Made by a program: the position numbers and the translations under genes
Shown here: positions 3,482 to 51,277 of the stretch, in pieces
Layout: the number at the start of each line of letters is the position of its first letter
How positions within the stretch are numbered: position 1 is the first letter of the stretch
Assembly: GCF_003012935.1 (NCBI RefSeq)
Contig: NZ_PUDR01000002.1
Coordinates: 248,001 to 312,000, forward strand
Direction: 5' to 3'
DNA length: 64,000 nucleotides
From: Pannonibacter carbonis
GTDB taxonomy: Bacteria; Pseudomonadota; Alphaproteobacteria; Rhizobiales; Stappiaceae
Notes under the pieces: generated by a model
Told to the model about the DNA's origin: nothing
What the model saw: the letters and a program-made list of their open reading frames with translations, nothing else
Database searches by the model: none

Positions 3482-5293
3482 TCACCCCTCGGCTTCTTCC
3501 TTCAGCATCTCCAGTTCCAGCCACTGTTCTTCGGCTGCGTCCTTTTCGCCGGTCAGCTTGGTGATCTCGGCTGACAGTTTGGCGAAGCGGTCCGGGTTTT
3601 TGGTGTAGAGCGCAGGGTCGGCCATTTCGGTCTGGAGCTTTTCCAGCTTCTTCGTCAGGGCTTCGATGGTGCCTGGCAGGGTTTTCAGCAGGTGTAACTG
3701 GCTGAAGGACAGCTTTGTCTTGGCGGCAGGTTTTTGCGCTGCTGGAGCCGAAGCCTTGGCAGCCTTGGCCTGCTGCTTCTCGGCCACCTTGCGGGCCGTG
3801 ACGCCCTCGCCGCGCTGGGCCACCATGTCGGAATAGCCGCCCGCATATTCCTGCCACTTGCCTTCCCCCTCCGACACGATGACCGATGTGGCCACCCGGT
3901 CGAGGAAGTCGCGGTCATGGCTGACGAGCAGAACCGTGCCGTCGTAGTCGCCGAGCAATTCCTGCAGCAGGTCCAGCGTTTCGAGATCAAGGTCGTTGGT
4001 CGGTTCGTCAAGCACCATGATGTTGGACGGGCTGGCCAGCGCGCGGGCCAGCATCGCACGGGCCCGCTCGCCGCCGGAGAGCACGCCGACGGGGGTTCTT
4101 GCCTGTTCGGGAGCGAACAGGAAGTCCTTCATGTAGGCGATCACGTGCTTGGTCTCGGTGCCGAGCACCACGGTGTCGCCGCGCCCGCCGGTGAGGACGT
4201 TCGACAGCGTTTCGTCCGGATTGAGCTTCTCGCGCTTCTGGTCGAGCGTCACCATCTGCAGGTTGGTGCCCAACCGGATGCTGCCGGTATCGGGGGCGAG
4301 TTCACCGGTCAGCATCTTCAGCAGTGTTGTCTTGCCCGCGCCATTGGCACCGATGAAGCCGACACGGTCGCCGCGCTGGATGCGGGTCGAGAAGTTGGCG
4401 ACGATGGTCCGCTCGCCATAGGTCTTGGAGGCGGACTTGGCCTCGACCACCAGCTTGCCCGAGGTTTCACCTTCGGTCACGGCCAGTTTGGCCGAGCCTT
4501 GCGGGCCACGGTGGTTGCGGGCCTTGTCGCGCAGATCGGCAAGCTCGCGCACGCGGCGCATGTTGCGCTTGCGCCGGGCGGTGACGCCATAACGCATCCA
4601 GTGCTCCTCGCGCTTGATCTGCTGCGCGAGTTTCTGCTGGTCGCGTTCCTCCTGCTCGAACACCTCGTCCCGCCAGGCCTCGAAATGCTCGAAACCCCGG
4701 TCCATGCGGCGGGTGGTGCCGCGGTCGACCCAGATGGTGGCACGGGAGAGATTCTCCAGGAATCGCCGGTCATGCGAGATCAGCACGATGGCTGACTTCA
4801 GTCCCTTCAACTCGCTTTCCAGCCATTCGATGGCCGGTAGGTCGAGATGGTTCGTCGGCTCGTCCAGCAGCAGGATGTCCGGCTCGGGGGCCAGCGCCCG
4901 GGCCAGCGCCGCGCGGCGCGCTTCGCCACCGGACAGGCTGCGCGGATCCTCCTTGCCGGTGAGGCCGAGAACCTCCAGCAGATAGGGCGCGCGATAGGGA
5001 TCATCGCCGGGCGCCAGGCCGTCGTTCACATAGTCCAGAATGGTGGCATAGGCCGACAGGTCAGGCTCCTGCGGCAGGTAGCGCAGGGTGCGGCCGGGCT
5101 GCAGGAAGAACTCGCCCTGATCGGCCTCGATCAATCCCGCAGCAATCTTCAGCAAAGTCGACTTGCCGGATCCGTTGCGGCCGACGAGGCAGAGCCGGTC
5201 GCCCTCTGATACGCTGAGGTCTGCTCCGGTCAGGAGCGGGGTCGAGCCGAAGGTCAGGTGAATGTCACGCAGGATCAGAAGCGGAGGAGCCAT
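3482..5293 (-). CDS. uup: ABC-F ATPase, Uup type
   Basis: 603 residues from the ATG at 5293 (protein begins MAPPLLILRDIHLTFG); the frame is open a further 73 codons upstream, but this extension is low-complexity basic sequence and unlikely to be translated. Two ABC domains without membrane helices: Walker A GRNGSGKST, signature LSGGEARRAALA and Walker B ILLLDEPTNHLD in the first; GANGAGKTT, LSGGERARAMLA and IMVLDEPTNDLD in the second. The C-terminal ~75 residues are a charged coiled coil as in Uup, after an Ala/Lys-rich linker. ABC-F proteins act on ribosomes or nucleic acid rather than in transport. Monocistronic, divergent from the opp-type operon. Confidence 0.88.
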   Translation of the reverse strand: MAPPLLILRDIHLTFGSTPLLTGADLSVSEGDRLCLVGRNGSGKSTLLKIAAGLIEADQGEFFLQPGRTLRYLPQEPDLSAYATILDYVNDGLAPGDDPYRAPYLLEVLGLTGKEDPRSLSGGEARRAALARALAPEPDILLLDEPTNHLDLPAIEWLESELKGLKSAIVLISHDRRFLENLSRATIWVDRGTTRRMDRGFEHFEAWRDEVFEQEERDQQKLAQQIKREEHWMRYGVTARRKRNMRRVRELADLRDKARNHRGPQGSAKLAVTEGETSGKLVVEAKSASKTYGERTIVANFSTRIQRGDRVGFIGANGAGKTTLLKMLTGELAPDTGSIRLGTNLQMVTLDQKREKLNPDETLSNVLTGGRGDTVVLGTETKHVIAYMKDFLFAPEQARTPVGVLSGGERARAMLARALASPSNIMVLDEPTNDLDLETLDLLQELLGDYDGTVLLVSHDRDFLDRVATSVIVSEGEGKWQEYAGGYSDMVAQRGEGVTARKVAEKQQAKAAKASAPAAQKPAAKTKLSFSQLHLLKTLPGTIEALTKKLEKLQTEMADPALYTKNPDRFAKLSAEITKLTGEKDAAEEQWLELEMLKEEAEG

Positions 5294-5688: not shown

Positions 5689-7275
5689 ATGTTTAAATCA
5701 GCCCGGATGTCTATTCTGGCGACGGCCCTTATGGCCGCCACGTCGATGAGCGCCATGGCCGAGGTGGTCTACCACCGCGGCAACTCTGGTGATCCCGAGA
5801 CCCTGGATCAGCACAAGACTTCGACGGTTGTCGAGGCCCACGTCCTGCGTGACCTTTACGAAGGTCTCGTTGCCTATTCCGCCGCTGGCGAGATTATCCC
5901 CGGCGTTGCGGAAAGCTGGACCACGTCTGAAGACGGCAAGACCCTCACCTTCAAACTGCGCCAGAACGCCAAGTGGTCGAACGGTGACCCGGTCGTTGCC
6001 GGCGACTTCGTGTTCTCGCTCCAGCGCATCATGAACCCGGAGACTGGCGCTAAATACGCCAACATCCTCTACCCGATCCTCAACGCCGAGGAAGTTAACA
6101 AGGGCACCGCCAAGCCGGAAGAGCTGGGCGTGAAGGCCGTCGACGACCTCACCCTGGAGATCACCCTGAAGGCTCCGACGCCGTACTTCGTCGACCTTCT
6201 GGCCCACCAGACAGGACTGCCGGTGCATCCGGCGACCGTGCAGAAACACGGCACCGACTTCGTCAAGCCGGAGTTTTTCGTCAGCAACGGCCCCTTCGTC
6301 CTGAAGGAGTTCGTTCCGAACTCCCACATCAAGGCGGTGAAGAACCCGAATTTCCATGACGCTGCCAACGTCAAGATCGACACGGTGATGTTCCACCCGA
6401 CCGAAGATCGCGGCGCTGCGCTGCGCCGTTTCCAGGCCGGTGAACTTCACTCCAACGATGATATCCCGACCGAACAGGTCGCCTTCATCCGCAAGGAACT
6501 GGGCGACCAGTTCAAGGTTGCCCCATATCTCGGCACCTATTATTTCGCCGTCAACATGAAGAACGAATCCTTGGCCAAGAAGGAAGTGCGTCAGGCGCTC
6601 TCGATGGCCGTTGACCGTGACTTCCTTGCCGAGGAAATCTGGGGTGGCACCATGGTGTCGGCCTACTCGCTGGTGCCCCCGGGCATCAACAACTACGGTG
6701 AGCCGGCATTTGCGTCCTACAAGGACATGTCGCAGATCGACCGCGAGGAAAAGGCCGCCGAGTTGCTGAAGGCTGCCGGCTACGGCCCGGACAAGCCGCT
6801 GAAGATCGAAATCCGCTACAACACCTCGGAAAACCACAAGAACACGTCGGTTGCCCTGGCTGACATGTGGAAGCCGCTCGGTGTCGAAGTGACGCTGCTC
6901 AACACGGACCTGAAGACCCACTATGCGCATCTGCGTGACAAGGGAGCCTTCGATCTCGCCCGTGCCGGCTGGATCGGGGATTACTCCGACCCGCAGAACT
7001 TCCTGTTCCTCGTTGAATCCGACAATGACGGCTTCAACTACGCAAACTACAACAACCCGGACTACGACAAGCTGATGGATGAGGCGGCCGCAACGACCGA
7101 CCTCGAGAAGCGTGCCGAGATCCTGAAGCAGGCCGAGACCATCTTCATGGACGACCTGCCGTTCATCCCGATGCTGTACTACGCATCCAAGAACCTGGTG
7201 TCCCCGAAGCTCAAGGGCTTCGAAACCAACCTGCAGGACGTACATCCGACCCGCTTCATGAGCATTTCGGAATAA
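5689..7275 (+). CDS. oppA: Periplasmic oligopeptide-type ABC substrate-binding protein (SBP family 5)
   Basis: 528 residues. ATG at 5689 is preceded by GAGGGGAGA at 5675-5683; an upstream TTG in frame would add seven residues before the signal peptide. A Sec signal peptide (basic start, hydrophobic core, cleavage after SAMA near residue 24) leads to a family 5 binding domain with GDPETLDQHK near the mature N-terminus, WSNGDPVVAGDFVFSL and an RAGWIGDYSDPQNFL segment close to those of OppA/MppA proteins. It should deliver peptides to the permeases encoded next. It is the first gene of the transporter unit; a terminator-like hairpin separates it from the permease genes. Confidence 0.9.
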   Translation: MFKSARMSILATALMAATSMSAMAEVVYHRGNSGDPETLDQHKTSTVVEAHVLRDLYEGLVAYSAAGEIIPGVAESWTTSEDGKTLTFKLRQNAKWSNGDPVVAGDFVFSLQRIMNPETGAKYANILYPILNAEEVNKGTAKPEELGVKAVDDLTLEITLKAPTPYFVDLLAHQTGLPVHPATVQKHGTDFVKPEFFVSNGPFVLKEFVPNSHIKAVKNPNFHDAANVKIDTVMFHPTEDRGAALRRFQAGELHSNDDIPTEQVAFIRKELGDQFKVAPYLGTYYFAVNMKNESLAKKEVRQALSMAVDRDFLAEEIWGGTMVSAYSLVPPGINNYGEPAFASYKDMSQIDREEKAAELLKAAGYGPDKPLKIEIRYNTSENHKNTSVALADMWKPLGVEVTLLNTDLKTHYAHLRDKGAFDLARAGWIGDYSDPQNFLFLVESDNDGFNYANYNNPDYDKLMDEAAATTDLEKRAEILKQAETIFMDDLPFIPMLYYASKNLVSPKLKGFETNLQDVHPTRFMSISE

Positions 7276-7288
7276 GGCACTCGTCAGG

Positions 7289-41909: not shown

Positions 41910-43223
41910 ATGGGACTCACCCATGAGCCCTGGCTCGTTGCCTTGTCCGTTCTGGTTGCCTTCCAGGGCAGCTTTGTCGGATTGAGCATGGCCATCCGCG
42001 TGCGTGACGCGCGCGATGCACGCCGGCGCATGCTGCTGGCGGGCTCCGCATTGACCCTCGCCCTCGGCATCTGGTCCATGCATTTCGTCGGCATGCTGGC
42101 GGCGCAGCTGCCGGTGGCGGTTGATTTCCTCGTGCTGCCGACGTTGCTGTCGTTTCTGATCTGCGTCCTGGTGGTCGGGCTGGCGGTGTTCACGGCAGCA
42201 CGGCGAAGGGGCGGGCTTACGCGGCTGCGATTGCTCATCTCGGCCTTTGTCATGGGCGCGGGCATTGCCACCATGCACTACCTCGGCATGCTGGCGCTGC
42301 ATGCCTCGTCGCACATGACCCATGATCCGCGATTTGTCGGCGCCAGTTTTCTGGTGGCCTTCTGCGTGTCCGGCCTGGCGCTCTGGCTTGCCTTCGGCAC
42401 GGTTCGCCGTCCGCCCGTGCTGGTGTCGGCGCTGGCGCTCGCACTTGCCATCGCCGCGATGCACTACATTGCCATGGCCGGCATGTCGCTGATGCCGATG
42501 GAAGGTGGCGGTACGGGCGCGCCGGCTGTGTCGCCAGGCATTCTTGCAATCATCGTCTCGGTCGTCGCCTTTCTCGTTTCCGGCCTGTTCCTGCTGACCC
42601 TTGTGCCGGAAACCGAGGAGGCGGAGCCGCCGCTGGCGCTGTCAGCACCAACGCCGGCCGCTAAGTCAGGTCCTGCCATTGCCGCCAATGAAACCGTACA
42701 TCCGGGCGAAGACGACGCGGCAGCGCAAATGACCAGCGTTGCCTCTCTGGCAGCGCTCTCTCCCATGCCGGCACCCACGCGCGACGGTCTTGCCGAACCG
42801 CTGCGGCGCGCGGCGCTTGGCCTGCAGAGCGCGCCGGACGAGGCGCGCCTGCGGTCTCAGCTCGCCGTCGGCGGCCTGTCCCTGCCCATCGAGCGGGACG
42901 GTGGCAAGGCGCGTCTGGCCGTGGGCGAGATTGTCGCCGTGCAGGCGGATGCCCATTACACCCGGGTGTTCGATCTGCAGCGCGCCTATTTCTGTCCCCT
43001 GTCGATCACGGAAGTCGAACGCCTGCTCGACGGACGCCATTTCACGCGCGTGCATCGCTCGCACATCGTCAATCTCGGCCGGGTCCGCGCGTTGCGGCGG
43101 GCTGGGGACAGCGGAATGGTGCTGCTGGAAGGCAGTCATGGCCACTGCGCGCCGGTCAGCCGGTCCAAATGGCCAAGGCTCAAGTCGCGCGTCGCGGGTG
43201 ATACGGTCAGCGCGGCCGAGTAG
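41910..43223 (+). CDS. coxC: MHYT-LytTR membrane sensor/regulator, CoxC-like
   Basis: 437 residues from ATG 41910 (AGGAGGGA upstream). Seven membrane helices (residues 1-235) carry the three MHYT repeats, seen as SMHFVGM, TMHYLGM and AMHYIAM, whose Met/His/Tyr residues are thought to bind a copper-like metal that could sense CO, O2 or NO. A ~100-residue linker leads to a C-terminal LytTR DNA-binding domain (about 330-430; IVAVQADAHYTRVF, RVHRSHIVNLGRV). The same architecture is found in CoxC/CoxH of Oligotropha. It lies directly upstream of coxM and probably controls it. Confidence 0.9.
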   Translation: MGLTHEPWLVALSVLVAFQGSFVGLSMAIRVRDARDARRRMLLAGSALTLALGIWSMHFVGMLAAQLPVAVDFLVLPTLLSFLICVLVVGLAVFTAARRRGGLTRLRLLISAFVMGAGIATMHYLGMLALHASSHMTHDPRFVGASFLVAFCVSGLALWLAFGTVRRPPVLVSALALALAIAAMHYIAMAGMSLMPMEGGGTGAPAVSPGILAIIVSVVAFLVSGLFLLTLVPETEEAEPPLALSAPTPAAKSGPAIAANETVHPGEDDAAAQMTSVASLAALSPMPAPTRDGLAEPLRRAALGLQSAPDEARLRSQLAVGGLSLPIERDGGKARLAVGEIVAVQADAHYTRVFDLQRAYFCPLSITEVERLLDGRHFTRVHRSHIVNLGRVRALRRAGDSGMVLLEGSHGHCAPVSRSKWPRLKSRVAGDTVSAAE

Positions 43224-43479
43224 ACCGCACTCTCCCTGATATTCCAAAAAGGCCGGTGAGCTTCGGTCGCGGCGCCGCCGGGACAGCTCATCTCCATGCG
43301 CCAGATGCGGCAACCCTGCTGACGCATTTCGTGCAAGTCGCGCCGCATTTCGTGCAGGGGCAGCGCGAATGGTGCAGCTCCCGTTGTGCGTGCACCGCAC
43401 ACACCGCCAGCCTCCGGATCAGGAGCAAGCGGTTTGGCCCGGCATCCCCGAGTTGACCGCACCGGTGAGGGAGGAAGCC
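43224..43479. promoter_or_regulatory. coxC-coxM intergenic control region
   Basis: 256 bp between the sensor gene and coxM. Besides the direct repeats at 43324-43376 it holds an inverted GTGCGTGCAC at about 43386-43395. No consensus sigma-70 -10 box is obvious. Confidence 0.5.
43324..43376 (+). promoter_or_regulatory. Tandem direct repeats, candidate LytTR (CoxC) binding sites
   Basis: GCATTTCGTGCA occurs perfectly at 43324-43335 and 43345-43356, a 21-bp period (two helix turns). A weaker third copy, GCGAATGGTGCA (8 of 12 matches), is at 43365-43376. LytTR proteins bind direct repeats with this period, and the coxM start is about 105 bp downstream, a position suited to activation. Confidence 0.6.
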
Positions 43480-44346
43480 GTGATCCCAGGACAGTTCACC
43501 TATCACAGACCATCGACCGTACAGGAGGCGGTGGCCCTTCTCGCCAGCCACGGCGAGGAAGCCCGGCCGCTGGCCGGCGGCCACAGCCTGATCCCGATGA
43601 TGAAGCTGCGCATGGCTGCGCCCGAGCATCTTGTCGACCTCGGCGGGGTCGCCGAGCTGAAGGGCATTCGCGAGGACGCAGGTCACATCGTCATCGGCGC
43701 GATCACGACGCAGCACGAAGTGATCGGATCCGAGCTTCTTGCGAGCAAGTTGCCGATCCTGCGCGAGACCTCGCTGGTTATTGCCGATCCGCAGATCCGT
43801 TATGTCGGCACCATCGGCGGCAATGTCGCCAACGGCGATCCGGGCAATGACATGCCGGCGCTGATGCAGTGCCTTGATGCCGGCTACGTGCTCGTCGGCC
43901 CGTCGGGCGAACGTCATGTGGCGGCGCGCGAGTTCTACGAGGCGGCCTATTTCACGGCGCTGAGCCCTGACGAGATCGTGGCTGCGATCCGCATTCCCGT
44001 GCCGGCCGCCGGCCATGGCTACGCCTACGAGAAGCTGAAGCGCAAGGTCGGCGACTACGCCACGGCGGCAGCTGCCGTGATGCTGACCCGCAGCGGGCAT
44101 CAGATCACCTCCTGCGCCATCGGCCTCACCAATGTCGCCGATACGCCGCTGTTTGCCGAGGAGGCGGGCCGCATCCTGACCGGATCGTCCATGGAAGCCG
44201 ATGTGGTCACCCGCGCCGTGGCTGCAGCCGAAGCAATCACCAATCCCGCCTCCGACGGCCGTGGGCCGGCGGAATACCGCACGCGCATGGCCGGCGTGAT
44301 GCTGCGCCGGGCACTTGCCCGCGCCTATGACCGCGCAGCGGCCTGA
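43480..44346 (+). CDS. coxM: CO dehydrogenase medium (FAD) subunit CoxM
   Basis: 288 residues from GTG 43480 after GAGGGAGGAAG (43468-43478); the same length as Oligotropha CoxM. FAD-binding motifs of the family are intact: [14 protein letters not shown] (about residues 31-44) and [14 protein letters not shown] (about 110-123). The subunit takes electrons from the Fe-S clusters of CoxS and passes them to the quinone or cytochrome chain. It is the first structural gene of the cox operon. The GTG start rests on the ribosome binding site. Confidence 0.93.
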
Positions 44347-44357
44347 GGGAGACAAAG

Positions 44358-44867
44358 ATGAGCGAAATCGAACAGCATCCCCTGACCCTCACGGTCAATG
44401 GCAAGAAGGTGCAGCGCTTCGTCGAGCCGCGCACGCTGCTGATCCACTTCCTGCGCGAGGAACTGTCCCTGACCGGACCGCATATCGGCTGCGAGACATC
44501 CCACTGCGGCGCCTGCACCATCGAGCTGAACGGCATGTCGGTGAAATCCTGCACCATGTTTGCCGTCCAGGCGAACGGGGCGGAGATCACCACCATCGAA
44601 GGCATGGCCGCTGCCGATGGCACCCTGTCGGCATTGCAGGAAGGCTTCCGCCAGATGCATGGCCTGCAGTGCGGCTATTGCACGCCCGGCATGATCCTGC
44701 GCGCGCATGTGCTCCTGAAGGAAAACCCGAACCCGACCGAAGCGGAAATCCGCGCCGGTATTGCCGGTAACCTGTGCCGCTGCACCGGCTACCAGAACAT
44801 CGTCAAGGCGATCCAGTACGCCGCCGCCAAGCTGGCCGGGCGTGACTTCCAGGAGGCAGCAGAATGA
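44358..44867 (+). CDS. coxS: CO dehydrogenase small [2Fe-2S] subunit CoxS
   Basis: 169 residues. The plant-type [2Fe-2S] site is seen as [16 protein letters not shown] plus a later SC (about residues 43-65), and the second cluster as CGYCTPGM...CRCTGYQN (about 104-145), as in xanthine-dehydrogenase-family small subunits. It carries electrons from the Mo-Cu site in CoxL to FAD in CoxM. It starts 11 bp after coxM and its stop overlaps coxL by 4 bp (ATGA). Confidence 0.95.
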
Positions 44868-47284
44868 ACGACATGACGCTGACCAAGGAACAGCGCGAGG
44901 CCCGCCTTGAAGGCATGGGCTGCAAGCGCAAGCGCGTCGAGGACATCCGCTTCACGCAGGGCAAGGGCCAGTATGTCGATGACATCAAGATGCCCGGCAT
45001 GCTGTTCGGCGACTTCGTCCGCTCCCCCTATCCGCATGCGCGGGTGAAGAAGATTGATGCCTCGCGGGCCCTGGCCCTGCCGGGCGTGATCGCGGTGCTG
45101 ACGGCGGAAGACCTCAAGGGCGTCAACCTCGCCTGGATGCCGACGCTCGCCGGTGACGTGCAGATGGTGCTGGCCGACGGCAAGGTGCTGTACCAGAACC
45201 AGGAAGTCGCCTTCGTGCTGGCTGAGGACCGCTATCTCGCCGACGACGCGATCCAGCTTGTCGATGTGGAATATGAGGAACTGCCGGTACTGGTTGACCC
45301 GTTCAAGTCGATGGACTCGGACGCGCCGGTGCTGCGTGAGGATCTTGTCGGCAAGACCAGCGGTGCGCACGGCCCGCGCAAGCACCACAACCACATCTTC
45401 ACATGGGATGTCGGCGACAAGGACCTGACCGACAAGGCCTTCCACGAGGCAGATGTCACGATCAAGGAGCTGATCTCGTATCACCGCACCCATCCCTCGC
45501 CGCTGGAAACCTGCCAGTGCGTCGCGGCGATGGACAAGGTGAAGGGCGAGCTGACGCTCTACGGCACCTTCCAGGCGCCGCATGTCATCCGCACCGTGGC
45601 CTCGCTGCTCTCGACGATCCCGGAGCACAAGATCCACGTCATCGCGCCGGATATCGGCGGCGGCTTCGGCAACAAGGTCGGTGCCTATCCCGGCTACATC
45701 TGCGCCATCGTCGCCTCCATCGTCACCGGGCGTCCGGTGAAATGGGTCGAGGACCGCATGGAGAACCTCTCCACTACGTCCTTTGCCCGCGACTACCACA
45801 TGACCACCGAGATTGCCGCCCGCAAGGATGGCACGGTGACAAGCCTGCGCGTGCACGTGCTGGCTGACCACGGCGGCTTCGATGCCTGCGCCGATCCGTC
45901 CAAGTGGCCGGCCGGCTTCTTCAACATCGTCACCGGCTCGTATGACTTCCCGGTCGCCCATCTCTCGGTCGACGGCGTCTACACCAACAAGGCGCCCGGC
46001 GGCGTTGCCTACCGGTGTTCCTTCCGCGTGACGGAAGCCGCCTACTGCATCGAACGGGCGATGGACATCCTGGCGCAGAAGCTCGGGATGGATCCGGCGG
46101 ACCTCAGGATGAAGAACTTCATCCGCCGCGACCAGTTCCCCTACCAGTCGGCGCTGGGCTGGGAATATGACAGCGGCGACTATCACCTCGCCATGCAGAA
46201 GGCGATGGACACGCTGAACTATCGCGCGCTGCGCGAGGAGCAGAAGCAGAAGCAGGAGGCGTTCAGGCGCGGCGAGACCCGCGAGATCATGGGCATCGGC
46301 ATTTCGTTCTTCACCGAGATCGTCGGTGCGGGGCCGTCCAAGAACTGCGACATCCTGGGCGTTGCCATGTTCGACAGCGCCGAGATCCGCGTCCATCCGA
46401 CAGGATCGGTGATCTCGCGCATGGGCACCAAGAGCCAGGGCCAGGGACACGAGACCACCTGGGCCCAGATCATCGCCACCGAGATCGGCATCCCGGCCGA
46501 AAACATCATGGTGGAAGAAGGCAACACCGACACGGCTCCCTATGGCCTTGGCACCTATGGCTCGCGCTCCACTCCGGTCGCCGGTGCGGCCATCGCGCTG
46601 GCGGCGCGCAAGATCCGCGCCAAGGCGCAGATGATCGCGGCCCACATGCTCGAGGTCTCCGAGTACGATCTGGAATGGGATGTCGATGGGTTCCAGGTGA
46701 AGGGCAACCCGCAGGCGCGCAAGTCCATGACCGAGATCGCCTGGGCCGCCTATCATCTGCCGCCCCCGGGCATGGAACCGGGGCTGGAAGCGGTCAGCTA
46801 CTATGATCCGCCCAACATGACCTATCCGTTCGGAGCCTATTTCTGCGTGATGGACATCGACGTCGATACGGGCGTTGCCAAGACCCGGCGCTTCTATGCG
46901 CTCGATGACTGCGGCACCCGCATCAACCCGATGATCATCGAAGGCCAGGTCCATGGCGGCCTGACGGAAGCCTTCGCCATCGCGATGGGGCAGGAGATTC
47001 GCTACGACGAGGCCGGCAACGTCATGGGGGCGTCCTTCATGGACTTCTTCCTGCCGACCGCCGTCGAGACGCCGCACTGGGAAACGGACTTTACCGTCAC
47101 CCCCAGCCCGCATCACCCGATCGGGGCCAAGGGCGTGGGCGAAAGCCCGAATGTCGGCGGCGTGCCGGCCTTCTCCAACGCGGTCAACGACGCCTTCGCC
47201 TTCCTCGGCTCCACCCACATCCAGATGCCGCATGACAGCTGGCGCCTCTGGAAGGTGGCAAAGGAGCTCGGCGCGACGGCCTGA
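44864..47284 (+). CDS. coxL: Form I CO dehydrogenase large (Mo-Cu) subunit CoxL
   Basis: 806 residues versus 809 for Oligotropha CoxL. The active-site loop AYRCSFR is present at residues 382-388, with Cys385 corresponding to the Cu-ligating Cys388; this loop defines form I (true CO-oxidising) enzymes. The catalytic Glu is Glu760 in GVGESPN, matching Glu763 by the same 3-residue offset. The molybdopterin cytosine dinucleotide sites (GGGFGNKVG near residue 266, QGQGHETTW near 525) are also intact. It oxidises CO to CO2 in aerobic bacteria and needs the CoxD/E/F maturation proteins encoded downstream. Confidence 0.96.
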
Positions 47285-47724
47285 CACTGCCTGTGGCCGG
47301 ACGGAGCGCATGCGTTCCGTCCGGGGCGCGGGGTCGACGCTGTCTGGTGCAGGCTGGATGTCACCTAGTGTTTTCCGGCAGGCCTCTCAGCCCCCCTCCC
47401 CCTCGTGGGGAGGGGTGAGGGGTGGGGGGCACGGGAGGTCGTCGGATCACAAGGCGTCTGAAGATCACTTGGCCAAGAACGCAAGCTGCTTGGATCTAAG
47501 TCCGCTCCCCCCACCCCCAACCCCTCCCCACGAGGGGGAGGGGAGCGGAGAGGATCCGACGGGTTAAACGTTATGGGCACAGTCCTTCACATCGAACACG
47601 TGCCAGATTTCACTTACGACGGCCCTGCCTCAAGGGGGGAGAGGGACTGCGGCCTTGCCAGATGCGCATGGGGAACACTGAGCGTCCGCACTCGCTTCAC
47701 CCCACACCAGGACCGGACTGATCC
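47285..47724. other. 440-bp gap between coxL and coxD
   Basis: No gene. It contains the GC-rich inverted repeat 47393-47543, which may end the coxMSL transcript and split the cox locus into structural and maturation units. A CACGTG lies at 47599-47604. Confidence 0.55.
47393..47543. repeat. GC-rich inverted repeat element inside the cox locus
   Basis: Arms 47393-47430 and 47504-47543 are inverted copies, identical over about 24 bp at the outer side. Each arm is itself a hairpin of CCCCTCCCC and GGGGAGGGG. Between them is a 73-bp non-coding loop. G-runs could form G-quadruplex structures. Similar CCCCTCCCC/GGGGAGGGG elements are common in intergenic alphaproteobacterial DNA; there is only one in this window. 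Confidence 0.7.
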
Positions 47725-48603
47725 ATGACCCGAACCAAGGACAGCATCGCCAAGGCCTTTGCCAGCGCCGGCTACATCGCCGACGAGGGATTGCTGACGG
47801 CCGTGCTGCTGATGGAGGTGCTGGCGCGGCCTCTGCTGCTGGAGGGCGAGGCCGGGGTCGGCAAGACGGAGGTCGCCAAGGCCCTGGCAGCCAGCGAGGG
47901 CACCGACCTGATCCGGCTGCAGTGCTTCGAAGGGCTCGACCGCTCCGATGCGCTTTACGAATGGAACTACCAGCGCCAGCTCCTCGCCATCAAGGCGCAT
48001 GAGGGGCAGGGCGATCCGGACGCCCTCGAGAGTGCCATCTTCTCGGAAAGATACCTCCTGCAGCGGCCGCTGCTGGCTGCCATCCGCAGTGAGCGCCCGG
48101 TGGTTTTGCTGATCGACGAGGTCGACCGGGCCGACGAGGAGTTCGAGGCCTTCCTGCTGGAAGTCCTGTCGGACTATCAGGTCTCGATCCCGGAGCTTGG
48201 CACCATTTCGGCCACCAGCATTCCCCGCGTCGTGCTCACCTCGAACGGCACGCGCGAACTCGCCGATGCCCTGCGCCGCCGCTGTCTTTATCATTACGTC
48301 GACTACCCGGATGTCGGGCGCGAGGCCGAGATCCTGCGCGCCCGGGTTCCCGGCATCGACACGGCCTTTGCCCTGCAGATCGCCGAGCTGATGAGCCGGC
48401 TGCGCAAGGAGGATCTCGCCAAGGTGCCGGGCGTCGCCGAGACCATCGACTGGGCGGCCGCGCTGACGGGGCTGGGCGGCACCCATCTCGCCCGGGACCG
48501 GGAGCTGGTCTTCGATACGCTCGCCTGCGTCCTGAAGACGCGCGAGGACCGATCCCGCATCACCCGCGAGGTGACGGACCGCCTCATCGGCAAGGTTGCG
48601 TGA
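47725..48603 (+). CDS. coxD: MoxR-family AAA+ ATPase CoxD
   Basis: 292 residues, very near the CoxD of Oligotropha (295). Walker A LLEGEAGVGKTEVAKALA (about residues 42-59), Walker B VLLIDEVDRADEEFEAF (about 129-145), and sensor/arginine-finger region LTSNGTRELADALRRRCLYH (about 171-190). CoxD acts with CoxE in sulfuration and copper loading of the [CuSMoO2] centre of CoxL. Starts at ATG 47725 after a long gap from coxL, and its stop lies 7 bp before coxE. Confidence 0.92.
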   Translation: MTRTKDSIAKAFASAGYIADEGLLTAVLLMEVLARPLLLEGEAGVGKTEVAKALAASEGTDLIRLQCFEGLDRSDALYEWNYQRQLLAIKAHEGQGDPDALESAIFSERYLLQRPLLAAIRSERPVVLLIDEVDRADEEFEAFLLEVLSDYQVSIPELGTISATSIPRVVLTSNGTRELADALRRRCLYHYVDYPDVGREAEILRARVPGIDTAFALQIAELMSRLRKEDLAKVPGVAETIDWAAALTGLGGTHLARDRELVFDTLACVLKTREDRSRITREVTDRLIGKVA

Positions 48604-48610
48604 GGCGGAC

Positions 48611-49816
48611 ATGAGCCAGACCGCTGCCCCCCAGACCGCCGCGTTTGAACCGGGTCCCGCCCTGCGCCTGACGCTGGCTGCCTTCGTCGCGCTGCTGCGC
48701 GACAAGGGCTTCCGCATCGGCCCGAGCGAGGCGGCGGATGCAGGCCGGCTGGTGACGGGTGCCGCTGGCCAGCGCGCGGCGACGTTACGCCCGGCCTTGA
48801 AGGCTCTGTTCTGCGGCCGGCGCTCGGACTGGCTCGCCTTCGATGCGCTGTTTGATGCGCACTTCCTGCGCAAGGGCATGAAGAAGGCGGTGACGCTCGC
48901 GGGCTCTGCAGGCGAGAGCGGCGGTGCCCGCACGCTGAAGCAGATGCAGGACGACCAGGCCGCGCGCCGCTCGTCGCCCGCGCTGGACGTCAGCCGCGAG
49001 GCAGAAGCCCCCGAGGCCGGCGAGGAAGATCCGGCGGGCACCCGCGAGGGCGCAAGCCGGGCGGAGAACCTTGCGGAGACCGACTTCCGCAAGATCCGCG
49101 ATCCGGAGCTGGAGGCCGAGGCGCATCGGCTGGCCGAACGGCTGGCGCTGGTGATGCGCCGTCGTCTCACCCGCCGCGACCGCATCCGCAGCCAGGGCCC
49201 GCGCCTCGACCTGCGTCGCACCTTGCGCAAGTCGGTGGCCCGCGGCGGCCTGCCGCTGGATCTGGTGCGCAAGGGGCCGAAGCTGCGCCAGCTGCGCCTC
49301 GTCGTGCTGCTGGATGCCTCGGGCTCGATGAACAACTACACCGGCGTTTTCGTCCGCTTCGTGCATGGTCTGCTGGATGCCTTCCGACAGGCCGATGCCT
49401 TCCTCGTCCACACGCGGCTGGTGCATGTGTCCTCTGCGCTCAAGGAGCGGGATGCGGCGCGGGCGCTGGACCGGCTCGGGCTGATGGCGCAGGGCGTCGG
49501 CGGCGGCACGCGAATCGGCGCGGCGCTGGCCGACTTCAACCGCTGGCACGCGGCCCGGGTGCTGACCTCGCGCAGCTGCGTCATCATCCTCTCCGATGGC
49601 TATGACACCGGCCCGGCCGAGGAGATCGGCGCGGAAATGGCCCGGCTCGCCCGCCGCTGCCGCCGCATCGTCTGGCTCAATCCGCTCATCGGCAGCGACG
49701 GCTATGCCCCGGTTGCCGCCGGCATGGCAGCCGCGCTGCCCCATGTCGACCTGTTCGCGCCCGCCCACAACCTGAAAAGCCTGGCAGCGCTCGAACCCTA
49801 TCTGGCCAAGGTGTGA
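48611..49816 (+). CDS. coxE: VWA-domain CO dehydrogenase maturation protein CoxE
   Basis: 401 residues (Oligotropha CoxE 399), using ATG 48611; the TTG at 48596 would overlap coxD. The C-terminal VWA domain has MIDAS motif LLDASGSMN (about residues 232-240), the threonine of GGGTRIGAAL and an Asp in IILSDGYDTGP (about 325). The N-terminal half is helical with an Arg-rich middle. It is the usual partner of the MoxR ATPase CoxD and assists copper insertion into CO dehydrogenase. Confidence 0.92.
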   Translation: MSQTAAPQTAAFEPGPALRLTLAAFVALLRDKGFRIGPSEAADAGRLVTGAAGQRAATLRPALKALFCGRRSDWLAFDALFDAHFLRKGMKKAVTLAGSAGESGGARTLKQMQDDQAARRSSPALDVSREAEAPEAGEEDPAGTREGASRAENLAETDFRKIRDPELEAEAHRLAERLALVMRRRLTRRDRIRSQGPRLDLRRTLRKSVARGGLPLDLVRKGPKLRQLRLVVLLDASGSMNNYTGVFVRFVHGLLDAFRQADAFLVHTRLVHVSSALKERDAARALDRLGLMAQGVGGGTRIGAALADFNRWHAARVLTSRSCVIILSDGYDTGPAEEIGAEMARLARRCRRIVWLNPLIGSDGYAPVAAGMAAALPHVDLFAPAHNLKSLAALEPYLAKV

Positions 49817-49826
49817 GGATCAAAAC

Positions 49827-50696
49827 ATGACCCCATCGACCACCCCACAACCACCACACTGGGACGCCAGAGACGTCAACTCCGTCATGGACCGCCTGCG
49901 CCGGGTGGGCGCTCCTTTCGCACTTGCCACCGTGGTTCGCACCGTTTCTGTCACGGCGGCCAAGGCGGGGGCGAAGGCGGTGATCGCGCCCGATGGCACG
50001 ATGCTCGCCGGCTGGATCGGCGGCGGCTGCGCCCGCGGCGCCGTGCTGAAGGCCGCGCGCGAGGCGCTGGCCGATGGCAAGACGCGGCTCATCTCGGTGC
50101 AGCCCGAGGATCTCCTGGCCGAACAAGGCGTCGCAGCGGGGGATGAGCGTCAGGGCGTGCGCTACGCCAGAAGCATGTGTCCGAGCAAGGGCACGATGGA
50201 TGTCTTTGTCGAACCGGTGCTGCCCCGTCCGCGTCTGATCGTTCTGGGCGCGAGCCCGGTCGCCGTTGCTCTTGCGGACCTTGGGCCGCGTCTTGGGTTT
50301 GACCTGACCGTCTGTGCCCTGCCGGAGGATCAACCGGTGTTTGCGTCGGCGGACGAGCGGATCGAGGGCTATGCCCTGCCGGTTGAAAGTCCGGCGGCCC
50401 GCTATGTCGTGGTCGCCACGCAAGGGCGCGGCGATCTGGCGGCACTGAAGGCAGCACTTGCCGTCGATGCCGAACACGTCGCTTTTGTCGGCAGCCGAAA
50501 GAAGGCGGAGGCCCTGTCACAAAAGCTGCAGGGGGATGGTATCGGTTTGAACCAGATTGGCCGGATGAAAGCCCCGGCCGGGCTTGACCTTGGCGCCATC
50601 ACTCCTGAAGAAATCGCCCTGTCCGTGCTGGCCGAGATCATCGTGTTGCGGCGCAAGGGACAGCGTGACACCCCAGAACTGGCAAAAAATCCGTAG
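49827..50696 (+). CDS. coxF: XdhC-family maturation protein CoxF
   Basis: 289 residues with the N-terminal XdhC/CoxI domain (about 20-80; PFALATVVRTVSVTAAKAGAKAV, GWIGGGCARGAVL, where a conserved Cys binds molybdopterin in relatives) and the C-terminal Rossmann part (LIVLGASPVAVALADLG; VAFVGSRKKAEALSQKL). XdhC-like proteins deliver sulfurated molybdenum cofactor to their enzyme. It begins 10 bp after coxE and precedes coxG by 26 bp, matching the known coxE-F-G order. Confidence 0.92.
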   Translation: MTPSTTPQPPHWDARDVNSVMDRLRRVGAPFALATVVRTVSVTAAKAGAKAVIAPDGTMLAGWIGGGCARGAVLKAAREALADGKTRLISVQPEDLLAEQGVAAGDERQGVRYARSMCPSKGTMDVFVEPVLPRPRLIVLGASPVAVALADLGPRLGFDLTVCALPEDQPVFASADERIEGYALPVESPAARYVVVATQGRGDLAALKAALAVDAEHVAFVGSRKKAEALSQKLQGDGIGLNQIGRMKAPAGLDLGAITPEEIALSVLAEIIVLRRKGQRDTPELAKNP

Positions 50697-50722
50697 TCCG
50701 ATCAAGCCGAGGAAACAGCCCC

Positions 50723-51277
50723 ATGCAGATGGCCGACAGTCAACGAATTGAAGCCCCGCGCCAGAAGGTGTGGGAGGCTCTGAACAATCCGGACGTGCTC
50801 AAGGCCGCGATCCCCGGCTGCGAGGAACTGATCAAGCATTCCGACACAGAGCTGGAAGCCAAGGTGACGCTGAAGGTCGGGCCGGTGAAGGCGACCTTCG
50901 GCGGCAAGGTGACCTTGAGCGAGCTGGATCCGCCGAAGGGCTACCGGATTGACGGCGAAGGCTCCGGAGGCGTGGCCGGCTTTGCCCGGGGCGGTGCCAA
51001 GGTCTGGCTCGAGGAAGACGGCCCGGACGCCACCATTCTCAACTATGAGGTCGACGCCAATGTCGGCGGCAAGCTCGCCCAGCTCGGCGCGCGCCTGATT
51101 GATTCCACCGCCAAGCGACTGGCCGGCGAGTTCTTCAAGAGCTTCGGCGACATCGTCGCTCCTCCGGCACCGGATGCTGACGCTGCTGCCGAGCAAGCCG
51201 AGGGCGAGAAGAAGGGCTGGTTCGGTGGCCTATTCGGCAAGAAGAAAGACGAGCCAGCAGTTGACGCCGAGGCGTGA
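50723..51277 (+). CDS. coxG: CoxG, SRPBCC-fold CO dehydrogenase-associated protein
   Basis: 184 residues with a helix-grip SRPBCC fold over residues 1-145 (ADSQRIEAPRQKVWEALNNP, KVTLKVGPVKATFGGKVTL, GGVAGFARGGAKVWLEED). CoxG is thought to link CO dehydrogenase to the membrane quinone pool, and its fold suits a lipophilic ligand. Here an acidic Ala-rich linker leads to a short amphipathic tail with KKGWFGGLFGKKKDEP instead of a clear membrane helix, so any anchoring would be peripheral. Last named cox gene. Confidence 0.9.
   Translation: MQMADSQRIEAPRQKVWEALNNPDVLKAAIPGCEELIKHSDTELEAKVTLKVGPVKATFGGKVTLSELDPPKGYRIDGEGSGGVAGFARGGAKVWLEEDGPDATILNYEVDANVGGKLAQLGARLIDSTAKRLAGEFFKSFGDIVAPPAPDADAAAEQAEGEKKGWFGGLFGKKKDEPAVDAEA

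Follow-up and report, generated by a model that had tools for sequence, protein, structure and literature searches.

Three direct repeats upstream of coxM in Pannonibacter carbonis as a predicted operator for the MHYT-LytTR regulator CoxC

Described LytTR operators and the cox locus of Pannonibacter carbonis

The closest described system is that of Afipia carboxidovorans OM5, in which CoxC binds three direct repeats at the promoter PcoxB through its LytTR domain and represses PcoxB without CO, as measured with an E. coli reporter (PMC11347149). CO is sensed by the MHYT domain of CoxC together with copper, which is required, and the regulator then leaves the DNA and repression is relieved; the operator is reported as overlapping the -35 box of PcoxB, and by the authors' account no MHYT protein before CoxC had been shown to act as a CO-sensing transcriptional regulator (PMC11347149). 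The original prediction for the locus described here had supposed that the DNA site of CoxC-type proteins was undefined, a statement that this operator, published in 2024, has made outdated (PMC11347149). The CoxC switch is therefore already proven in one relative, OM5, at PcoxB; no published test of CoxC at coxM was found in the literature searched, and in a word search of the OM5 study coxM appears twice, within coxMSL (PMC11347149). Among other LytTR proteins, RcoM1 of Paraburkholderia xenovorans is a haem-sensing activator of cox genes with three TTCNNGCA repeats, and the sites of LytTR response regulators consist of two 9-bp repeats 10-13 bp apart (PMC11347149).

In the window (the whole 64-kb stretch of DNA that was analyzed), coxC (41910-43223, plus strand) encodes a 437-aa MHYT-LytTR membrane regulator, per Pfam matches to MHYT (E 1.3e-41) and LytTR (E 3.4e-15). 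It is followed on the same strand by coxM (43480-44346), the presumed target, which encodes the medium (FAD) subunit of CO dehydrogenase (Pfam FAD_binding_5 and CO_deh_flav_C) and has a GTG start with GGAGGAA just 5' of it at 43470-43476, and then by coxS and coxL (44358-47284, plus strand), assigned from Pfam matches (Fer2_2, MoCoBD) and gene order as the structural genes of the presumed operon. CoxC has an N-terminal MHYT domain with three motifs, a C-terminal LytTR domain and a gene adjoining coxMSL, all as expected of the family. In an alignment with OM5 CoxC that begins the window protein at an internal Met, the two share 46.0% identity over 374 aligned positions; MHFV, MHYI and MHYT of OM5 CoxC are the counterparts of the window protein's motifs MHF, MHY and MHY, and the motif histidines are kept in 99-100% of 69 aligned homologues. 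CoxC had been proposed as the sole LytTR protein of the window, which holds, and it is also the one PF04397 (LytTR) match found in the 4.78-Mb genome.

Of the named relatives among the best 80 genome contigs, Pannonibacter sp. SL95 (L059) comes nearest, with a CoxC at 97%. In the two members of the same genus that were sampled, CoxC was not matched at E 1e-20 and the coxM-like matches are at about 40% only; the cox cluster (window positions 41910-51277) is accordingly patchy and may be accessory within the genus.

Upstream of coxM lie three plus-strand repeats, which we predict to be CoxC operator repeats: I (43323-43335) and II (43344-43356), both CGCATTTCGTGCA, and III (43364-43376), the degenerate copy CGCGAATGGTGCA, 20 bp beyond repeat II. 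The array had been described as a perfect 12-bp repeat with a 21-bp period and a degenerate third copy, about 105-155 bp upstream of coxM. Each of these elements was recovered: GCATTTCGTGCA occurs at exactly 43324-43335 and 43345-43356, 21 bp apart, the perfect repeat extends to 13 bp, and the distance from the 8-bp cores (43328-43376) to the downstream GTG at 43480 is 104-152 bp. Repeats I and II match TTNNNGCN, the unit that a CoxC operator would carry three times, in full, and the core of repeat III, ATGGTGCA, lacks the first T and keeps the rest; repeat III is the copy of lowest conservation across the arrays of relatives as well. A candidate fourth copy, TGCGTGCA at 43387-43394, which overlaps the predicted -35, was set aside since its spacing of 18 bp past repeat III departs from the family period.

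The locus resembles the OM5 CoxC-PcoxB system in having a MHYT-LytTR regulator with three MHYT-type motifs (the first being MHFV in both), three direct repeats, and cox genes downstream of the operator. In contrast to PcoxB, the operator here stands before coxM and 3' of coxC, its repeats I and II are perfect, and its period is 20-21 bp rather than the published 29 and 26 bp. With the two-repeat sites of LytTR response regulators, of which AgrA is an example, it shares direct repeats spaced by about two helical turns, whereas here there are three copies and the unit is extended to 13 bp. Likeness to RcoM1 extends to the three TTCNNGCA repeats, the 12-13 bp spacers, the cox genes and the LytTR domain, but RcoM1 is a haem sensor and an activator, and no such protein was found in this genome.

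Within the genome, the pair of 8-mers at 21 bp occurs once with 0 mismatches, at the coxM array, with one mismatch at two more places (L199 and L200) and with two at 9, for 12 pairs with up to two mismatches in 4.78 Mb versus 3 for the reversed pattern. The spaced motif TTCNNGCA-N12/13-TTCNNGCA occurs 4 times in the genome, versus 0 for its reversed pattern. Judging from the one-mismatch pairs at L199 and L200, the genome may hold further CoxC targets besides the coxM array. Using a matrix trained without Pannonibacter loci, the coxM array scores 52.4 bits, and the best non-overlapping site in the 64-kb window scores 11.8.

Conservation of the repeats between coxC and coxM

Homologues of CoxC were sought in 397 genomes drawn from the larger order, 76 of which gave a match at E 1e-20, and more CoxC loci were taken from the best 80 genome contigs and from plasmids. 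A coxM search of an equal number of genomes matched 116 at E 1e-40; the coxM matches listed split in two, at 52% identity or more and at 42% or less, and from the 57 listed at 52% or more, one partial match (G379) was left out. Matches below 50% or beginning past residue 6 were dropped, as were duplicates sharing the same 120 bp at the start of coxM, so that 117 loci with coxM of at least 50% identity were reduced to 83 with distinct coxM starts; in 76 of these coxC lies immediately before coxM, and in 7 it does not. The LytTR domains of this set are 25-100% identical to that of the window's CoxC, and the loci share kinship, such that counts over the 76 gaps are not counts of independent events.

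Comparison of the coxC-coxM gaps, which had been put forward as a check on the array, shows that the repeats recur at 20-21 bp. The exact 7-mer TTCGTGC is present on the coxM strand in 62 of the 76 gaps (14 lack it) and on the antisense strand in 4, versus a mean of 2.31 and a maximum of 8 gaps in 200 shuffles; a second copy at 18-22 bp is present in 53/76, versus a shuffle mean of 0.13 and a maximum of 1. Around the 88 exact copies, second matches of at least 6 of 8 bases concentrate at +20 (33), +21 (22) and +40 to +42 (25) against a background of 0.5% per offset, and frequencies over 4% are confined to offsets of 19-21 and 40-42 bp and to offset 4 (4/88). Because GCA and the core entered the scoring, conservation measured on anchored arrays is partly circular, and the flanks of the exact copies were used instead; in these 88 copies the flanking CGCA, unused in picking them, is conserved at frequencies of 0.90 (C), 0.94 (G), 0.89 (C) and 0.68 (A). 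The family repeat unit is thus CGCA-n-TTCGTGCA with a period of 20-21 bp.

Scored as whole arrays, 71/76 gaps exceed 22 bits and 5/76 do not, the 71 being mostly training data. Across 861 kb from the 76 loci, both strands summed, the only sites above 22 bits outside the sense-strand gaps are OM5 PcoxB and one antisense site within a gap. Upstream of coxC, the exact-7-mer test found no sense-strand pair in 66 stretches and one antisense pair, so that an array positioned as at coxB is not the rule.

The presence of the array was also compared with that of CoxC. Among the 7 coxM loci that coxC does not immediately precede, the 7-mer is present in 3 and the pair in 2. In three genomes with coxM and no LytTR protein (G041, G081 and G274) the site was found in none, the best score in the stretches fetched being 7.1 bits, and in four genomes with the MHYT-LytTR gene elsewhere (G043, G355, G167 and G256) the scores near coxM are 40.0, 28.4, 23.0 and 16.1 bits, three of them above 22. 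Given this conservation, a genome search that found no LytTR protein besides CoxC, and the match to the OM5 operator described below, the proposal that the repeats are CoxC operators is well supported, and we consider it very probable that the three repeats form a CoxC operator at the coxMSL promoter, to which CoxC is predicted to bind.

Several loci depart from this arrangement. Two Sinorhizobium meliloti plasmids carry a strong three-copy array after a MHYT-LytTR gene (L119:4243-4290, 40.5 bits; L206:5242-5289, 42.4 bits), with no cox genes in the stretches fetched and an EAL-domain gene annotated next in L119; in these plasmids a CoxC-like switch may be rewired. In Roseibium album (L037) and in L040 the coxM arrays are degenerate, and about 65-84 bp past the coxC stop TTCGTGCA is followed three bases on by its own reverse complement, so that the two make up a perfect dyad. 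A lone TTCGTGCA or TTCGTGCG stands at +58 to +71 past the coxC stop in several Roseibium, Labrenzia and Stappia loci.

The OM5 operator, the coxM promoter and the direction of control

To relate the family consensus to the proven operator, the 13-kb cox region of OM5 was scored using a matrix built without OM5 and B. betae. The two highest sites are at coxM (7229, 30.2 bits) and PcoxB (4189, 29.2 bits), and the next scores 11.7. A matrix from other species that ranks both OM5 sites first recovers the proven operator and predicts a second one at OM5 coxM. The OM5 plasmid pHCG3 (L116) would therefore carry two CoxC-type arrays, at PcoxB (4189-4237) and before coxM (7229-7276), and an experimental test was found for PcoxB alone.

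At PcoxB, the units read here are TTCATGCG (4189), TTGGTGGA (4210) and TTTGGGCA (4230), 21 and 20 bp apart, with TTGATG beginning 15 bp (III+15) and TATCGT 39 bp (III+39) past the start of the third. The published repeats are TTACCGCC, TTTGGGCA and TTGCGGCA, at 4201, 4230 and 4256 of the same sequence, 29 and 26 bp start to start with spacers of 21 and 18. The published site-1 mutation also changes the conserved G in the CGCC ahead of proposed unit II, and it costs only 3.4 bits in the matrix, though binding turned very weak (PMC11347149). The published clone of PcoxB begins at CAGTTCATGCG after an EcoRI site and thus lacks the CG of the proposed first unit. The third published site lies outside the proposed array, yet its mutation abolished residual binding (PMC11347149). 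These comparisons suggest that the published operator was read in a shifted register, a proposal that leaves the effect of the third-site mutation unexplained.

No sigma-70 consensus promoter was detected in a promoter scan of 43224-43500. The predicted -35 of PcoxM, TTGTGC (43384-43389, plus strand), begins 15 bp past the core start of repeat III, and a weak, tentative -10, CAGCCT (NAnnnT; 43408-43413, plus strand), follows after 18 bp. Promoter and palindrome counts were made on 68 of the 76 arrays, with 6 low scorers and two loci with misplaced or degenerate arrays (L037 and L185) left out. The trinucleotide TTG is at III+15 in 33/68 arrays, versus a top count of 7 at any offset in 500 shuffles, and is commoner in arrays with the palindrome described below (25/31) than in those without it (8/37). 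In the 31 palindrome arrays, T is at III+44 in 26 (-10 position 6) and A at III+40 in 15 (position 2), which tentatively fits a weak -10 past an 18-bp spacer; TTG and TAnnnT occur jointly at 15-19 bp spacing in only 2/68 loci, and the -10 is for this reason called tentative.

With TTG beginning 15 bp past the start of repeat III, the operator would adjoin the -35 on its upstream side, the array ending 7 bp before TTG here and, in the proposed register, at OM5 PcoxB also, and the repeats are centred near -47, -67 and -88 of the estimated transcription start. The array does not overlap the -35 as the published PcoxB operator does; the -35 being predicted, this is a weak ground for exclusion.

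We would like to note that the operator and the sign of its action are separate questions. That CoxC controls coxMSL through the repeat array in response to CO, in either direction, is likely, and CO-relieved repression is the direction we favour, with some reserve, because it was measured at OM5 PcoxB. On this account, CoxC would bind the three repeats on one helix face just 5' of the -35, and bound CoxC would hold coxMSL off; CO at the membrane would release CoxC and coxMSL would be switched on. The evidence presented here is sequence comparison, and binding and expression were measured at OM5 PcoxB, with repression from the E. coli reporter. Counting against repression is the position of the operator just 5' of the -35, which is usual for activators (PMC11347149). 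CoxC might instead activate coxMSL from the same array in the manner of RcoM, or act as a dual switch, which would leave the operator unchanged and differ in sign. This is a possibility that we rate clearly lower, although RcoM1 and most LytTR regulators activate from 5' of the -35 (PMC11347149), the array ends 7 bp before a TTG that stands at one offset in about half of the arrays counted, and the predicted -10 is poor. OM5 CoxC, however, is freed from DNA by CO and repressed PcoxB in E. coli (PMC11347149), and PcoxB has the same geometry in the proposed register, so geometry alone does not imply activation.

Regarding the signal, the original prediction named CO, redox or copper. CO together with copper stands for OM5 (PMC11347149), and a redox input would be possible via a separate element, the palindrome at repeat I.

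The palindrome, other candidate binders and significance

The palindrome TGCGGCAA-CCCTG-CTGACGCA (43306-43326), a possible Reg/ActR/PrrA-type box with a putative binder, abuts and overlaps repeat I, and its TGCGTCAG-N5-CTGACGCA form overlaps the CGCA of that repeat. The conserved block could thus serve mainly another regulator, such as one of the Reg/ActR/PrrA type on the palindrome, with CoxC secondary. The left arm (at least 5 of 8 bases) stands at one register in 31/68 arrays, versus 0-5 at 24 other registers, and the genome encodes an ActR/PrrA-family protein above the curated cut-off. Putative RegR boxes of Bradyrhizobium japonicum begin much like the arm variants TGCGGCA, TGCGACA and TGCGTCA, but the spacing of the second half differs in the palindrome here (PMC4064962). 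This likeness is weak because the putative RegR boxes vary in both spacing and sequence (PMC4064962). By the same measure of the arm, 37/68 arrays keep the repeats without it, and pairing at the variable dyad position is not above chance (14/31, p 0.28). The palindrome by itself gave little information in a genome search, with 18 matches per strand versus 13 for the reversed pattern. We consider a mainly non-CoxC function of the block very unlikely. Should the palindrome be an activator site, CoxC on repeat I would block the activator.

An RcoM-type haem PAS-LytTR activator was also considered as the binder, since for RcoM1 the consensus is TTCNNGCA with 12-13 bp spacers, identical to the core here (PMC11347149). 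It was rejected as very improbable: no PAS-LytTR protein was found in the genome as assembled, the sole PF04397 match is CoxC, with its MHYT domain, and the arrays track CoxC. That the array arose by chance or is left over from a local duplication is scarcely credible, for although single 12-mers with up to two mismatches occur at chance frequency (7 in the window versus 7.71 expected), the repeats are conserved over the 76 gaps with a fixed period and a strand bias, in loci whose LytTR domains diverge as widely as stated above.

Returning to CoxC as the binder, what is added here to the switch proven at PcoxB is a predicted coxM operator that recurs in many relatives, at a promoter undiscussed in the OM5 study, together with the TTG offset and the overlap with the palindrome. 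More speculatively, the coxMSL promoters of Alphaproteobacteria might combine CO and redox control in one composite switch whose geometry is fixed, made up of the palindrome (in about half), three CGCA-n-TTCGTGCA CoxC units, the first of them overlapping the palindrome, and then the -35. CoxC at coxM, and not only at coxB, would then be ancestral and the principal control point, and the OM5 operator would be shifted in register. With CoxC at coxM as the principal control point, CO and respiratory redox state would compete or cooperate on one shared stretch of DNA.

As a CO-sensing regulator, CoxC has so far been known from a single promoter of a single strain. With an operator consensus for the whole family, CoxC targets could be predicted from sequence; the consensus already predicts a CoxC site at coxM of the model strain OM5 itself and suggests another register for the repeats of the published operator. 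Repression versus activation at the main CO-dehydrogenase promoter thereby becomes directly testable.
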